From contig DATIYJ010000025.1 of assembly GCA_035517655.1 (NCBI GenBank), positions 1 through 37,225 on the forward strand: a stretch of 37,225 bases of DNA, in the 5' to 3' direction. The DNA comes from Nitrospiria bacterium. Its GTDB lineage: Bacteria > Nitrospirota > Nitrospiria > JACQBZ01. Positions 30,665 through 37,225 of this stretch are shown one piece after another. The notes beneath the pieces were generated by a model. The model had not been told where the DNA came from and made no database searches. It worked only from the letters and a program-made list of their open reading frames with translations. Numbering within the stretch: the stretch's first letter is position 1; each line of letters begins with the position of its first letter. The translations under genes were made by a program, and so were the position numbers.

Positions 30665-32449
30665 ATGAAACTGAACGGCGCTCAAATCTTTGTCGAGTCA
30701 TTAAAGAAAGAAGGGGTGAAGGTTATTTTTGGTTTGCCCGGCGGCGTGGTTCTAAAGATTTTTGATGTGTTGTATGATTACAAAGACCCCGCCGTCATTC
30801 TGACTCGACACGAACAGGGTGCCATGCACATGGCCGAAGGCTATGCAAAGGCCACCGGAAAACCGGGCGTGGTGCTTGTGACCTCCGGACCGGGGATGAC
30901 GAATACCGTCACCGGGCTCGCGGACGCCTACATGGACTCCGTTCCCCTCGTGGTGTTTACGGGACAGGTCTCGACCAGTCTCATCGGCAATGACGCCTTT
31001 CAAGAGGCCGACAACGTCGGGATCAGCCGTCCCTGCACCAAGTACAACTACCTGGTCAAGGACGTGAACGATCTCGCCCAGACGATTAAAGAGGCCTTCT
31101 ACATAGCAACCACGGGGCGCCCCGGTCCGGTTTTGGTGGATATTCCCAAAGACGTCTCGATGAATCAGACCGAATTCAACTACCCGGAAAAAGTATATAT
31201 CCGCGGCTACAATCCAACGTACGAGGGGCACAAATGGCAGATCAAGCAGGCGGCCGAGGCCATTTTAAAAGCGAAGCGGCCCGTCCTTTATGTCGGGGGC
31301 GGTACGGTCTTCTCTAACGCTTTTGAAGAACTGCGGGAGTTCGCCGACCTGACGCAGATCCCTGTCGACATGACGCTGATGGCGCTGGGCAGTTTCCCGG
31401 GAACGCATCCCCTGTCCCTGGGAATGCTCGGAATGCACGGCAGCTATACCTCCAACATGACCATCCATCATTCGGATCTGATTATCGCCGTCGGATCCCG
31501 CTTCGACGACCGGGTGACGGGCAAGGTGTCTGAATTTGCGCCGCACGCGAAGATTATCCATATCGATATCGATCCGACCTCGATCCAGAAAATCATGAAC
31601 GTGGACATTCCGATCGTCGGCGACGTGAAATGCGTGCTGAAGGAACTCAACCAGCATCTCCGGACCTCCGTGGACGGCCGGCGCAGGGAAGAACTCAAAC
31701 CCTGGTGGAACCAGATCGAAGAGTGGAAAAAGAAGCACCCCTTGACCTATCAACAAAGTCCGGACCAGAAGATCAAACCTCCCTACCTGATCGACCGGCT
31801 GTATGAGTTGACCAAGGGTCAAAACCCCGTCGTGGCCACGGACGTCGGCCAACATCAGATGTGGGCGGCCCAGTTTTTCAAACTGGACCAACCCCGGACC
31901 TGGCTCACCTCGGGCGGTTTGGGCACGATGGGTTTCGGATTTCCGGCCGCCCTCGGAGCGCAACAGGCTTTTCCCGGCCGGCTGGTCCTCAGCATCGTCG
32001 GCGACGGAAGTTTTCAGATGAACCTCCAGGAGCTGGCCACGGCCATGGACTACCGTCTGCCCGTCAAAGTGGTGATCGTCAACAACGGTTATCACGGCAT
32101 GGTTCGTCAATGGCAAGACCTGTTTTACAACAGCCGTTACTCCGCCAGCGACCTGGGTCATCATCCGGATTACGTGAAACTGGCGGATGCGTATGGCGCC
32201 GTCGGCCTTCGTGCGACGAAACCGCAGGAAGTGGACGGGGTCATCAAGGAGGCCTTGAAGATCGACCGGCCGGTTCTCATCGATTTTCAGGTGGACCCTT
32301 ACGAAAATTGTTATCCCATGATTCCCGCCGGAGGGGCGAACAACGAAATGATCCTGGAAGATCCGCCGGAGCTTCAGAAAAAGGGGAAAGACCGGGGTGA
32401 GATGAAAGAGGCCGGCAACGGAGAAAAAGAAGGGGTCCTGACGGCTTAA
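30665..32449 (+). CDS. ilvB: Acetolactate synthase large subunit
   Basis: IlvB makes 2-acetolactate or 2-aceto-2-hydroxybutyrate, the first common step in valine, leucine and isoleucine synthesis, using thiamine diphosphate, Mg and FAD. The 594-residue protein starts LNGAQIFVESLKKEGVKVIFGLPGG. It carries the catalytic Glu50 in RHEQGAMHMAEGYA, and the ThDP/Mg motif GDGSFQMNLQELAT...VNN lies near residue 445. About 20 charged residues extend the C-terminus (KKGKDRGEMKEAGNGEKEG), probably disordered. GAGGAG precedes the ATG. It heads the operon with ilvH and ilvC. Confidence 0.97.
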   Translation: MKLNGAQIFVESLKKEGVKVIFGLPGGVVLKIFDVLYDYKDPAVILTRHEQGAMHMAEGYAKATGKPGVVLVTSGPGMTNTVTGLADAYMDSVPLVVFTGQVSTSLIGNDAFQEADNVGISRPCTKYNYLVKDVNDLAQTIKEAFYIATTGRPGPVLVDIPKDVSMNQTEFNYPEKVYIRGYNPTYEGHKWQIKQAAEAILKAKRPVLYVGGGTVFSNAFEELREFADLTQIPVDMTLMALGSFPGTHPLSLGMLGMHGSYTSNMTIHHSDLIIAVGSRFDDRVTGKVSEFAPHAKIIHIDIDPTSIQKIMNVDIPIVGDVKCVLKELNQHLRTSVDGRRREELKPWWNQIEEWKKKHPLTYQQSPDQKIKPPYLIDRLYELTKGQNPVVATDVGQHQMWAAQFFKLDQPRTWLTSGGLGTMGFGFPAALGAQQAFPGRLVLSIVGDGSFQMNLQELATAMDYRLPVKVVIVNNGYHGMVRQWQDLFYNSRYSASDLGHHPDYVKLADAYGAVGLRATKPQEVDGVIKEALKIDRPVLIDFQVDPYENCYPMIPAGGANNEMILEDPPELQKKGKDRGEMKEAGNGEKEGVLTA

Positions 32450-32474
32450 GCCGTCGTCCGAAAGCAGCCCGCGC

Positions 32475-33002
32475 ATGGAGCATATCATCTCAGTCATGGT
32501 CGAAAACAAGTTCGGGGTTCTTTCCCGGGTGGCCGGTTTATTCAGCGGACGGGGCTTTAATATCGACAGCCTGTCCGTGGGGCCCACGATCGATCCGACC
32601 GTCTCCATGATGACCCTGGTCACTCACGGAGACGACCGCATCGTAGAGCAAATCATCAAACAACTGAACAAACTCATTGACGTGATCAAGGTGGTCGACT
32701 TGACGGAAGGGGCCTTCGTGGCCCGCGAAACCGTCCTGATCAAGATCAACGCCAAAGGGGAAGACCGCGCCGAGGCCTTGCGGATTACGGATATCTTCCG
32801 GGCGCGCGTCATTGATTCCACGCCGACCACCTACACCGTCGAAGTCACGGGCGACACCAATAAAATCGAAGCGATCATCAATCTGTTGAAGCCTCTGGGC
32901 ATCAAGGATCTGGTCCGAACCGGACGGATCGCGATCGCGCGCGAAGAAATCAAAACCGCCGTCCAGGATAAAAACCAGGACAAAAAGCGGTTTGGCACTT
33001 GA
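32475..33002 (+). CDS. ilvH: Acetolactate synthase small (regulatory) subunit
   Basis: The 175-residue regulatory subunit stimulates IlvB and confers valine feedback inhibition. An N-terminal ACT domain (HIISVMVENKFGVLSRVAGLFSGRGFNIDSLSVGPT) is followed by the C-terminal domain with LIKINAKGEDRAEALRITDIFRARVID. This is the usual length for IlvH/IlvN of this type. It lies 25 bases after ilvB; the ribosome site is weak, suggesting coupling. Confidence 0.96.
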   Translation: MEHIISVMVENKFGVLSRVAGLFSGRGFNIDSLSVGPTIDPTVSMMTLVTHGDDRIVEQIIKQLNKLIDVIKVVDLTEGAFVARETVLIKINAKGEDRAEALRITDIFRARVIDSTPTTYTVEVTGDTNKIEAIINLLKPLGIKDLVRTGRIAIAREEIKTAVQDKNQDKKRFGT

Positions 33003-33009
33003 GCCCTAA

Positions 33010-34053
<1,044 letters not shown>

Positions 34054-34076
34054 GGCGGAGGGTTTCTCACCGCACC

Positions 34077-34721
34077 GTGGCCCAAGACCCGTCACCGGTA
34101 GCTCGTGAACGCTTGCCCTTCCTGATCGGCGCGACCGTACTGACCGTGGCCGTGGCGTTTCTCAAGGTCGTCTGGCTGACCGTCCCGATCGCCGTCCTGG
34201 CCCTCCTGGTTTTCTGGTTCTTCAGAGACCCCAAGCGCGTCATTCCCGCCGGAGAAAGGTTGATTGTTTCCCCCGCGGATGGTAGAATTATCGAGATCGG
34301 GGAAGCCGAAGAGGAACGGTTTCTCAAGGACCGGGCGATCAAGGTCGGCATCTTCCTCAACCTGTTCGACGTTCACGTGAATCGAATCCCCTGCGAGGGC
34401 CGGATTCGATCCATCCAGTACCAGCACGGAACTTTCCTGGCGGCAAACAAGGACTTGGCCTCGACCCAGAACGAACAGAACGCCCTGCTGCTTGAAACCG
34501 CTTCGGGGGCGAAGCTGGTGTTCGTTCAGGTCGCGGGGCTGGTGGCGCGACGGATCGTTTGCTGGGTGAAAGAGGGCGACGCGGTGGAACGCGGCGTCCG
34601 CTTCGGGATGATCCGCTTCGGTTCCCGGACGGATCTGTTCCTGCCCCTCGGAACGGAGCTCAAGGTGCGCTTGGGGCAAAAAGTCAAAGGCGGTTCAAGC
34701 ATCATTGGAGTGTTGAAATGA
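34077..34721 (+). CDS. psd: Phosphatidylserine decarboxylase proenzyme
   Basis: Psd converts phosphatidylserine to phosphatidylethanolamine. The 214-residue protein is of the short (type II, archaeal-like) class. N-terminal membrane segments (LPFLIGATVLTVAVAFLKVVWL, VPIAVLALLVFWFF) lead into FFRDPKRVIP, VSPADGRI and FLNLFDVHVNRIP. The self-cleavage site GGSS lies nine residues from the C-terminus; cutting before the serine creates the pyruvoyl group. The start is GTG with a distant GGAGG. Its stop overlaps pssA by four bases (ATGA). Confidence 0.94.
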   Translation: MAQDPSPVARERLPFLIGATVLTVAVAFLKVVWLTVPIAVLALLVFWFFRDPKRVIPAGERLIVSPADGRIIEIGEAEEERFLKDRAIKVGIFLNLFDVHVNRIPCEGRIRSIQYQHGTFLAANKDLASTQNEQNALLLETASGAKLVFVQVAGLVARRIVCWVKEGDAVERGVRFGMIRFGSRTDLFLPLGTELKVRLGQKVKGGSSIIGVLK

Positions 34722-35497
34722 AGAATTATCGACGCGGTATTTATTTGATTCCGAATTTGTTGACGACGGGAAACCTCTTCAGCGGTTTTTATTCCCTCAT
34801 TGCGGTATTCAACGCCGACTACCTGCGGGCCGCCCTGGCCATCCTGGTGGCGATGGCCTTCGACGTGCTGGACGGAAAATCGGCCCGGCTGACGAAGACG
34901 ACGAGCCGCTTCGGCGTCGAATACGACTCGCTGGCCGACATCGTCTCCTTCGGCGTGGCCCCGGGTTTGTTGATCTATTCCTGGGCCCTGAGCAGCTACG
35001 GACGCGTGGGCTGGGTCGCGGCCTTCCTTTTCGTGGCCTGCGGGACGCTGCGGCTCGCGCGCTTCAACGTCCAGGTCGGAACGGTCGAAAGCAAGCATTT
35101 CGTCGGGCTCCCGATCCCGGCCGCGGCGGGGGTGATCGCCTCGCTGGTGGTGCTGGACCATCATATCCTGCGGATGGGAAGCGAGATCAAGCCGCTCCTG
35201 ATCCTTGGGCTGATTTATACGCTGGCCTTTCTGATGGTCAGCACGTTTCGCTACCGGAGCTTCAAGGATTTTCACCTGCGGGGCCGCAAACCCTTTCACA
35301 TGCTGGTCTCGGCCGTCTTGGTCCTGATCATTCTCGCGGCCGAACCCCAGGTCCTGTTGTTCGTCCTGTTTGCGGGATACGCGCTCGCCGGGGTGATCGA
35401 GCGGCCGCTCACCGCGATGATCCGAAAAATGCTGAAACATCCCGCGCCGGCCCGTCATTCTTCGTCCGTGCCGCCGACGGGGCCGAACGTCCCTTGA
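34718..35497 (+). CDS. pssA: CDP-diacylglycerol-serine O-phosphatidyltransferase
   Basis: PssA makes phosphatidylserine, the substrate of Psd. The 259-residue membrane protein has the CDP-alcohol phosphotransferase signature DG-x2-AR-x8-G-x3-D-x3-D (DGKSAR ... G ... D ... D, residues about 50-72). Around eight hydrophobic segments match type II PssA. I choose ATG 34718, which overlaps the psd stop. The longer upstream frame is psd in another phase. The leuA promoter -35 begins inside its last codons. Confidence 0.95.
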   Translation: MKNYRRGIYLIPNLLTTGNLFSGFYSLIAVFNADYLRAALAILVAMAFDVLDGKSARLTKTTSRFGVEYDSLADIVSFGVAPGLLIYSWALSSYGRVGWVAAFLFVACGTLRLARFNVQVGTVESKHFVGLPIPAAAGVIASLVVLDHHILRMGSEIKPLLILGLIYTLAFLMVSTFRYRSFKDFHLRGRKPFHMLVSAVLVLIILAAEPQVLLFVLFAGYALAGVIERPLTAMIRKMLKHPAPARHSSSVPPTGPNVP

Positions 35498-35523
35498 CAG
35501 ATTCAAGGGCTTCCTGCCATAAT
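35494..35523 (+). promoter_or_regulatory. Promoter for the leuA T-box leader
   Basis: A perfect TTGACA (35494-35499), which contains the pssA stop TGA, is followed after 18 bases by CATAAT (35518-35523, five of six). Transcription would begin near 35530, just ahead of the T-box structure. Confidence 0.75.
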
Positions 35524-35529
35524 GAAGAC

Positions 35530-35752
35530 GTTTAAAGGCTGTGATGAGGAGTAGTAGGTCCGTTTAAGGGACCGAACTCGCCTCGGAGCCGCGCCGGTGA
35601 ATGAAAAGTAATCGGCGTCGTCCCGCCCGCGTGAAGGGCCAATGAAGGGTTCTCGCAGCCGGGAACCAAATCAGGGTGGTACCACGAAGGAAGAGCCTTC
35701 GTCCCTGCATCGCGCCGAATCGATCCGGTGCGGCAGAGACGAGGGCTTTTTT
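35530..35752 (+). promoter_or_regulatory. T-box riboswitch (leucine, CUC specifier), very short Stem I
   Basis: The T-box core AGGGTGGTACCACG (35673-35686) is unmistakable; its TGG would pair with the NCCA end of uncharged tRNA. Stem I can be built from GGCT/AGCC (35537-40 with 35587-90), a kink-turn-like GTGATGA/GGA, then GAGG/CCTC (35546-49 with 35581-84). Next comes an AGTA/GAA loop-E specifier bulge and a 5-bp GGTCC/GGACC stem closed by a 7-base loop. The specifier is CTC (35577-35579), a leucine codon. The usual long distal half of Stem I is missing. Stem II (CGCCGGT/ATCGGCG, 35592-35617) carries its own GAA/AGTA motif. Stem III is GGTTC/GAACC. The antiterminator (35673-35706) competes with a strong terminator. 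Uncharged tRNA-Leu should allow leuA transcription. Confidence 0.92.
35695..35752 (+). terminator. T-box-controlled intrinsic terminator
   Basis: GCCTTCGTC (35695-35703) pairs with GACGAGGGC (35738-35746), extended by inner CTGC/GCAG and CGCGCCG/CGGTGCG stems, and is followed by six T (35747-35752). The 5' strand overlaps the antiterminator, as expected for a transcriptional T-box. Confidence 0.9.
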
Positions 35753-35836
35753 ATTTATGGCTGAAGGGCCTAAACCCAAACACCCTTAGTAATAGCAGGT
35801 ATCATTTCAACGAGCAAAGCGAGCGAGAGGGGGAGG

Positions 35837-35877
35837 CTCCGGTGGCTTCGCCACCGGAGGGGGCGACGTGAGCCCCT
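35837..35877. repeat. Two adjacent hairpins in the leuA leader
   Basis: CTCCGGTGG and CCACCGGAG (35837-35859) form a perfect 9-bp stem around CTTCG. It is followed at once by GGGGCGACGTGAGCCCC (35861-35876 region), whose core GGGGCGA..CGTGAGCC resembles the 28-bp palindrome at 553 and 8811. A purine-rich run of GAGCGAG units precedes them. They lie between the T-box terminator and the leuA ribosome site. The rest of 35753-35894 holds no gene. Confidence 0.6.
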
Positions 35878-35894
35878 AAAAATAGGAGTAAACC

Positions 35895-37225
35895 ATGACA
35901 CGCATGATTAAAATCTTCGACACCACGCTGCGCGACGGCGAGCAGTCGCCCGGCGCGAGCATGAACGTGGAAGAAAAGGTGATGATCGCGAAGCAGCTGG
36001 CCCGGCTTAACGTGGACATCATCGAGGCCGGCTTCGCCTTCAGCTCGCCCGGTGATTTCGAAGCCGTGAAGCGGATCGCCCACGAGGTGGAAGGGCCCGT
36101 GATCGCAAGCCTCGCCCGCGCCAAGCCGGAAGACGTGGACAGCGCCTGGGAAGCGCTCAAGGGCGCGCCCAAGGTGAGGATCCATACCTTCATCTCGACC
36201 TCCGACATCCATCTCAAACACCAGTTCCGCCTGACGCGCGAGCAGGCGCTCAAGCGCGCGGTCGAGATGGTCGAGCGGGCGCGCGGCTATGTCGAGGACG
36301 TCGAGTTCTCGCCGATGGACGCGACCCGTTCGGACGAAACCTACCTCTGCGAAGTCCTCGAAGCCGTCATCGCGGCCGGGGCCAAAACGGTCAACATCGC
36401 CGACACGGTCGGCTACTCCATCCCGCATGAGTTCGGATCCTTGATCCGGATGATTCGCGAACGCGTCCCGAACATCAAACAGGCCGTGATCTCGGTCCAT
36501 TGCCACAACGACCTCGGCCTGTCCACGGCCAATTCGCTCGCGGCCGTCTCGGAAGGGGCCGGACAGGTGGAGTGCACGATCAATGGGATCGGGGAGCGGG
36601 CCGGAAACGCCGCGCTGGAGGAAGTCGTGATGACACTGCGGACGCGCCGCCATCTCTTCGGGGCCGACACGCAAATCCGCACCGAGGAGATCACCAAGAC
36701 CAGCCGCCTGGTGAGCAAGATCACCGGCATGGCGGTCCAGCCGAACAAGGCGGTGGTGGGGGCCAACGCCTTTGCGCACGAATCGGGCATCCATCAGGAC
36801 GGGCTGCTCAAGGAGAAGATGACCTACGAGATCATGACGCCGGCCTCGGTCGGCCTCGGCCAGAGCCATCTCGTCCTGGGCAAGCATTCCGGCCGCCACG
36901 CGCTCAAACAACGTCTGGAAGAACTCGGCTACCGGCTGACCGAGGAGGAATTGAACGCGGCCTTCGAGCGGATGAAGCGTCTCGCGGACCAGAAGAAGGA
37001 AATTTTCGACGAAGACATCGAAACGATCGTGAACGAGGAACTGTCCAGGATCCCCGAAACCTACGTTCTCCGCAAGATCCACGTCGAGAGCGGGAGCGAG
37101 ACGACGCCCACCGCCACGGTCGAGCTGGCCGTGAACGGACAGACGGCCCGGAACGTCGCGAAAGGCGACGGCCCGGTGGACGCCGCCTATAAAACGATCG
37201 CGGCCATCACCCAGACGAAGAGCCG
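35895..37225 (+). CDS. leuA: 2-isopropylmalate synthase (3' end beyond window)
   Basis: LeuA condenses acetyl-CoA with 2-oxoisovalerate, the first committed step of leucine synthesis. The visible 443 residues start with [17 protein letters not shown], the HMGL-type catalytic motif with metal-binding aspartate. [17 protein letters not shown] supplies the metal histidines, and [15 protein letters not shown] and [15 protein letters not shown] follow. The C-terminal leucine-sensing domain begins near residue 400 and is cut by the window end, so feedback inhibition is likely. ATG 35895 has TAGGAG upstream. The frame stays open to the last base. Expression is governed by the T-box upstream. Confidence 0.96.

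Follow-up and report, generated by a model that had tools for sequence, protein, structure and literature searches.

Results

Gene order and a promoter-like site around the leader

The window (the whole 37,225 nt stretch of DNA that was analysed) carries a leucine T-box riboswitch at positions 35537–35752 of the forward strand, recognized by a match to the Rfam model RF00230 and followed after 142 nt by the putative regulated gene, leuA (35895–37223, forward strand), which by homology and gene context encodes 2-isopropylmalate synthase and which runs off the window. Upstream of the T-box, the open reading frames at 30665–35497 are ilvB-, ilvN-, ilvC-, psd- and pssA-like; these names, and that of leuA, were taken from homology and gene order, and we presume them to be correct. 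Full-length copies of leuA within the window's family (f1) are 90–95% identical. A motif scan, read together with the leaders of the family, places a candidate sigma70-type promoter at 35494–35523 on the forward strand (TTGACA, 18 bp, CATAAT), one such site being found against 0.2 expected. TG precedes CATAAT, which makes the –10 an extended one, and the –35 shares bases with the stop codon of the pssA-like frame. TTGACA stands at a similar distance before the T-box in all six family leaders and CATAAT in five of them, TATCAT taking its place in L025.

The 142 nt interval from the terminator to the leuA start (35753–35894) contains a GC-rich hairpin (35837–35859), of which no second copy was found within the window; its core is absent from the other genomes' loci that were compared, save two that are the window's own stretch, and a repeat search over 35740–35900 found nothing. 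The interval differs much between family members, leuA starting 142 nt behind the terminator hairpin in the window and about 25 nt behind it in L023. L025 and L028 have other, unrelated extra sequence between terminator and leuA, and a GGGGACAGATTT-type inverted sequence occurs in the interval of L025.

Identification of the leader as a T-box and its cognate tRNA

The covariance-model check proposed in the initial annotation was carried out with cmscan, which returned RF00230 at 35532–35709 (forward strand; 85.8 bits, E = 1.1e-18); the genome contains no further T-box match at E <= 1. The alignment spans the model end to end (positions 1–219), with a gap at the distal part of Stem I. The Rfam gathering score, 93 bits, is higher than the scores of all six family matches, so that annotation at that threshold would pass over these leaders. 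The T-box sequence with the UGGN bulge is present in the antiterminator (AGGGUGGUACC, from the sequence and the antiterminator fold), and GGGUGGUACCACG is kept in all six family genomes. The T-box core, the antiterminator/terminator pair and the T-run before leuA, all of which had initially been read from the letters of the window, are borne out by the RF00230 match, by the alternative folds and by a run of six U residues. Moreover, the genome encodes a tRNA-Leu(GAG) ending in A-CCA (L344, contig 6 of G000), which is complementary to the CUC specifier and, by its ACCA end, to UGGU; leucine tRNAs with the anticodons UAA, UAG, CAA and CAG are encoded as well. For Geobacter metallireducens, PMC2700814 gives a prediction that the leuA T-box likewise reads tRNA-Leu(GAG).

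Stem I carries a short cap above the specifier loop

Stem I (35537–35590, 54 nt), as delimited by the family model, the fold and the alignment, comprises a basal helix (GGCU/AGCC), a kink-turn region, a second helix (GAGG/CCUC), the specifier loop and a cap. The 5' side of the specifier loop is AGUAGUA (35550–35556; loop E or S-turn), which lies opposite GAA-CUC-G and is invariant in all six family leaders, as is the leucine specifier codon CUC (35577–35579), to which the tRNA-Leu(GAG) of the genome corresponds. In place of the distal arm, the arm-length comparison described below identifies a cap hairpin, GGUCC-GUUUAAG-GGACC (35557–35573), with 5 bp and a 7 nt loop in the window and 4–5 bp across the family. 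Neither an AGAGA nor a GGUGC elbow-binding motif occurs in the 17 nt arm of the window. The family model and the alignment of leaders therefore uphold the original description of a 54 nt Stem I with kink-turn, CUC specifier loop and cap and without the distal arm. Two expectations attached to that description were likewise confirmed, in that CUC and the Stem I AGTA/GAA are kept in all six family leaders and none of the six contains sequence for a long Stem I; indeed, a hidden long Stem I is ruled out by the mere 12–22 nt between AGUA and GAA in each of them. An assembly error as the cause of the short arm is ruled out by its occurrence in six separate genomes from three genera.

Stem I folds better than its shuffles (z = –3.47; 0 of 200 as good). 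In the minimum-energy fold GAGU pairs with ACUC, which buries the specifier, and GAGG/CCUC is not formed; the open specifier loop is thus a prediction of the family model, contrary to the energy fold. RNAalifold on the six family leaders gave a mixed structure, in which the foot of Stem I is joined to the T-box region and the specifier is paired with its opposite strand; we take this as a by-product of high similarity among the leaders and of motifs that lie outside the scoring of energy rules.

Stem II, Stem III and the alternative helices

Stem II (35592–35617, forward strand; family model and alignment) contains a GAA (35599–35601)/AGUA (35607–35610) S-turn. This motif, already pointed out in the initial annotation, stands in the window and is kept in the family as GAA and GTA in six of six leaders, the full AGTA being present in three of the six only. 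One pair of the stem is changed on both sides (C-G, U-G, U-A) and one is broken in L020. There follow a Stem IIA/B pseudoknot with an F-box-like GCGUGA (35619–35639), all six pairs of which are kept in all six genomes, and a Stem III hairpin (35648–35667; family model), which has AUGAAG and AA on its flanks and is short in the window; its conservation in the family is poor (7 of 63 columns invariant).

The antiterminator (A1/A2, 35673–35706; family model, fold and alignment) exposes the T-box bulge UGGUACC (35677–35683), and its fold without tRNA has a predicted energy of –15.0 kcal/mol (z = –2.49; 5 of 200 shuffles as good). The intrinsic terminator (35695–35752; fold and alignment) re-pairs the 3' side of the antiterminator and ends in U6 at 35747–35752, with a predicted energy of –40.5 kcal/mol (z = –7.34; 0 of 200 shuffles as good); all 13 pairs of its helix are kept in the six family genomes. 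Over these genomes 99% of the pair cells are kept for all named antiterminator-state helices and 100% for the terminator, and each of the six leaders has a strong hairpin followed by T5–T6 (TTCTTT in L025). A simple terminator scan found none here, against 0.8 in shuffles, because the stem is interrupted by an interior mismatch and a bulge and the scan is limited to uninterrupted stems with loops of 3–8.

The distance from the T-box to the U-run has a median of 76 nt (71–81) in the family versus 60 nt (51–87) in 70 leaders of the class and phylum, and the median terminator energy is –34.2 versus –24.1 kcal/mol in the same 70; two long-arm leaders of family f5 have distances of 69 and 72 nt, similar to those of the window's family. 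Being stronger than most, the family's terminators would make antitermination harder; any tie between terminator length and the missing arm is speculative.

Conservation within the family

Outside the cap loop, 43 of 46 Stem I columns (one of the 46 lying just past the stem) are invariant over the six family genomes, compared with 1 of 14 columns in the cap loop and 50 of 132 fourfold sites of leuA (38%, over 290 codons). Judged from these alignments, Stem I is conserved in the window's family beyond the leuA fourfold sites. Covariation among the six leaders was no better than in shuffles (261 of 500 as high) because the leaders are too alike, and for that reason family covariation alone does not prove the cap; for the terminator 500 of 500 shuffles were as high, and there the shuffles cannot differ.

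The short arm is confined to one family among the leaders compared

T-box matches (E <= 0.01) were obtained in 171 of the 269 genomes of the window's class, the families represented among the matches listed being f1, f2 and f5. Within the window's family six of seven genomes, in three genera, have a T-box; family f2 appears, from named loci in the LeuA tree, to hold Nitrospira. A sample of the phylum gave a match in 125 of 395 genomes, and the class of a Geobacter genome in 234 of 244, with spans of about 212–332 nt among the approximately 150 matches listed for the latter. Long-Stem-I leuA T-boxes are common both in the window's class and in Geobacter relatives, and leuA T-boxes of Geobacter and Pelobacter figure in an earlier report (Wels 2008, PMC2494555). 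The attribution of the window to a Gram-negative lineage is sustained, and the delta-proteobacterial comparison made at the outset is corrected to a class that appears to hold Nitrospira.

Up to 30 loci were taken from each of the large searches (class, Geobacter's class and phylum sample), each listed to about 150 matches at most, and arm length was compared in 140 leaders, defined as those of the retrieved loci in which both the specifier string GAACTC[AG]CC and a 5' element could be recognised, irrespective of the downstream gene (L241 counted twice; L160, L170, L171, L272, L284 and L286 left out for want of the 5' element). The arm above the specifier loop is 12–22 nt long in six of these (L001, L020, L023, L025, L027 and L028), which are exactly the six leaders of the window's family. 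It is at least 52 nt long in the other 134, all of which show an AGAG-type pattern and 129 of which show a GGUGC-type loop pattern; the five rows without the latter (L002, L241 twice, L247 and L249) have GGUGA or GGUGG forms. L027 has an AGAG pattern in the loop of its 12 nt arm and is still without a distal arm. Over the 140 leaders the first four pairs above the specifier loop, each represented by several pair types, are formed in 523 of 560 cells, against 216 of 560 when the pairing is slid by one as a control. Since the base pairs above the specifier loop are common to the 140 leaders, the cap is the base of an ordinary arm, the rest of which appears to have been removed. Among a further 30 loci, nine were read by eye (L261, L262, L264, L269, L271, L277, L278, L284 and L286), and all but L271 retain the distal arm or remnants of it.

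In a LeuA tree built by a quick method from 68 rows (unrooted; L301 left out, there being no leuA on its contig) the window's family, including G004, forms one branch with an SH-aLRT of 100. Its neighbours are f2, f5 and further lineages; long-arm leaders occur in some of these, and others are labelled 'noTbox', a label that denotes no pattern match beside leuA, several such genomes having T-boxes elsewhere. Because long arms are present in every other lineage with a readable leader, Geobacter relatives included, the direction of change would be one of loss, and the simplest and likeliest reading of this unrooted tree is that the arm was lost once, in the ancestor of the window's family.

Other natural variants in the phylum

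In G004, a member of the window's family, no T-box separates leuA from the gene upstream, which it follows directly (L140, about 1500, reverse strand); the absence could be real or an assembly fault. In G019 (f5) only the antiterminator/terminator is left before leuA (L144, about 1275–1480), Stems I–III being gone. Two leaders of family f18, L301 (1088–1271, forward strand) and L302 (1092–1274, reverse strand), have a CUC specifier and a full Stem I with the distal motifs kept, and no Stem II or IIA/B, for which they have 2 nt against 40 model positions. In L302 leuA was located behind the T-box by tblastn, and the contig of L301 is too short to show whether leuA follows; in L292, L295 and L296, from the same family, the Stem II region is longer. 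We also observed that several f2 leaders have a lower arm of Stem I that is about 60–130 nt longer, and that a repeat-like insertion of some 100 nt or more lies in this lower arm in L026, L029, L030, L146, L147 and L150; the distal motifs are kept throughout.

Discussion

Drawing on the sequence of the leader, its structure potential and conservation, the cognate tRNA gene, the promoter-like site and the clade-wise short arm, we consider it probable that the window leader is a T-box that senses tRNA-Leu(GAG) and regulates leuA through transcription attenuation, and that its distal arm was lost in the ancestor of its family. In particular, we suggest that when leucine is short the anticodon of uncharged tRNA-Leu(GAG) would pair with CUC in the short Stem I, that Stem II and the pseudoknot, bent over by the kink-turn, would clamp the codon–anticodon duplex from the side, and that the free ACCA end would pair with UGGU in the T-box bulge, the antiterminator being held and RNA polymerase reading into leuA. 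Where the tRNA is charged, or there is none, the antiterminator would give up its 3' half to the strong terminator. That Stem II may have taken over the gripping of the tRNA is argued by analogy with ileS T-boxes; in the actinobacterial T-boxes without an elbow motif, Stem II is described as essential and as clamping the codon–anticodon duplex from the side (PMC7583486).

Several observations count against the attenuation reading. Transcriptional T-boxes are reported generally to require the elbow motif, mutation of which impairs them, a need that is tied to the speed of tRNA capture (PMC7583486, section 6.2); furthermore, G004 is without a T-box, some neighbouring branches of the LeuA tree have no pattern match before leuA, the family's terminators are stronger than most, the energy folds pair the specifier, and the terminator scan and the covariation analysis gave null results. 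The reported importance of the elbow motif in transcriptional T-boxes (PMC7583486), the wholly T-box-less locus of G004 in the same family and the antiterminator/terminator retained by itself in G019 would suit a T-box in decay, in which loss of the arm crippled the binding of tRNA and the leader, now mainly a constitutive partial terminator, is disappearing. We regard such decay as unlikely, since all six genomes, drawn from three genera, have kept the specifier, the Stem I AGUA/GAA, the T-box bulge and the terminator, even as they diverged in the cap loop, where 1 of 14 columns is invariant, and at fourfold sites, of which 50 of 132 are.

It is formally conceivable that another part, such as an enlarged Stem III or a protein, came to contact the tRNA elbow in place of the arm, given that several members of the family (L028 and L023) have a long Stem III and that the sequence and fold analyses used here do not see tertiary contacts; however, the window's own Stem III is short, its conservation in the family is poor (7 of 63 columns invariant), and the six family leaders were not seen to share any new conserved element, so that we hold a replacement of this kind to be quite improbable. 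Mainly translational control, as in other T-boxes without the elbow motif and with the U-run hairpin secondary, would agree with the failure of the simple scan to flag the hairpin, but is very hard to reconcile with the strong hairpin and T5–T6 in all six family leaders, with a distance to the leuA start that, as given above, differs between the window and L023, and with a ribosome-binding site that in the window lies, by position alone, outside the alternative helices.

If the leader is the transcriptional attenuator that we favour, then the leuA leaders of the phylum might be regarded as a natural deletion set, with both grips, with Stem II alone or with the elbow grip alone, in which either grip suffices within the polymerase's time. 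We advance this tentatively, judging it a little less probable than its contrary; if true, it would run against a need for the elbow motif in T-boxes that act on transcription. The greater distance between T-box and U-run in the family may give a slower capture of tRNA more time, a weak idea because the two long-arm f5 leaders share this length (69 and 72 nt) and the range over the 70 leaders is 51–87 nt. In any case, an arm-less leader with a terminator is a natural test of which parts of the switch are needed, and the short-arm clade and its long-arm relatives, with the same gene and terminator logic, provide matched pairs for testing the elbow requirement.

Of the four T-box classes that are distinguished, classes I and II are generally transcriptional with a long Stem I, and classes III and IV are mostly translational and without the elbow motif (PMC10482949). 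By this published scheme the window leader would combine a class IV-like tRNA-binding part with a class I-type terminator. The long Stem I with a distal elbow-binding motif (IDTM) of class I is replaced by a 17 nt arm, and the class I terminator alternative to the antiterminator is present in the predicted folds. The specifier lies below a 5 bp cap and not in the apical loop of 5–6 nt that marks class III; as in the intermediate Stem I arrangement of class IV described in PMC10482949, the family-model structure has no IDTM, a specifier in a side bulge between helices, and a Stem II. Class IV is 'mostly' translational, whereas the window sequence has a terminator with a U-run and a start codon far behind. 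This points to a freer pairing of tRNA-binding architectures with expression platforms than the division into four classes implies. We found no published description of a transcriptional leuA T-box without the distal arm; older T-box surveys and the TBDB data may note such leaders. The proposal that a terminator-bearing leucine T-box of this kind before leuA, here conserved across a family, is little described is accordingly supported.

The actinobacterial 'ultrashort' ileS T-boxes to which the leader had first been likened belong to class III and have an apical specifier (PMC10482949), so that this likeness fails, and assignment of the window leader to the ultrashort type is ruled out by a specifier placed between two helices. 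Actinobacterial ileS T-boxes are described in PMC1262725 as acting on translation. Two of them were set beside the window leader by their description in PMC10482949. That of Nocardia farcinica (class III) is likewise without the elbow motif, and its Stem II is presumably essential, as in the window; unlike the window leader, with its 4–5 bp cap above the specifier and its terminator, it has an apical-loop specifier. That of Actinomyces odontolyticus (class IV) belongs to a mostly translational class, to isoleucine and ileS and to another phylum, in contrast to the terminator, leucine and leuA of the window. Class II (glyQS) T-boxes are transcriptional, like the window leader, and show the opposite economy, a long Stem I without Stem II; this Stem II-less architecture is described in PMC10482949 as glycine-specific, and L301 and L302 have it with a leucine specifier. 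Finally, the class I leuA T-boxes of Geobacter and Nitrospira share with the window leader the gene, the CUC specifier, Stem II, Stem IIA/B, Stem III, the antiterminator/terminator and a homologous base of Stem I, and differ from it in the AGAGA/GGUGC distal arm, which they have and which the window's family is without.
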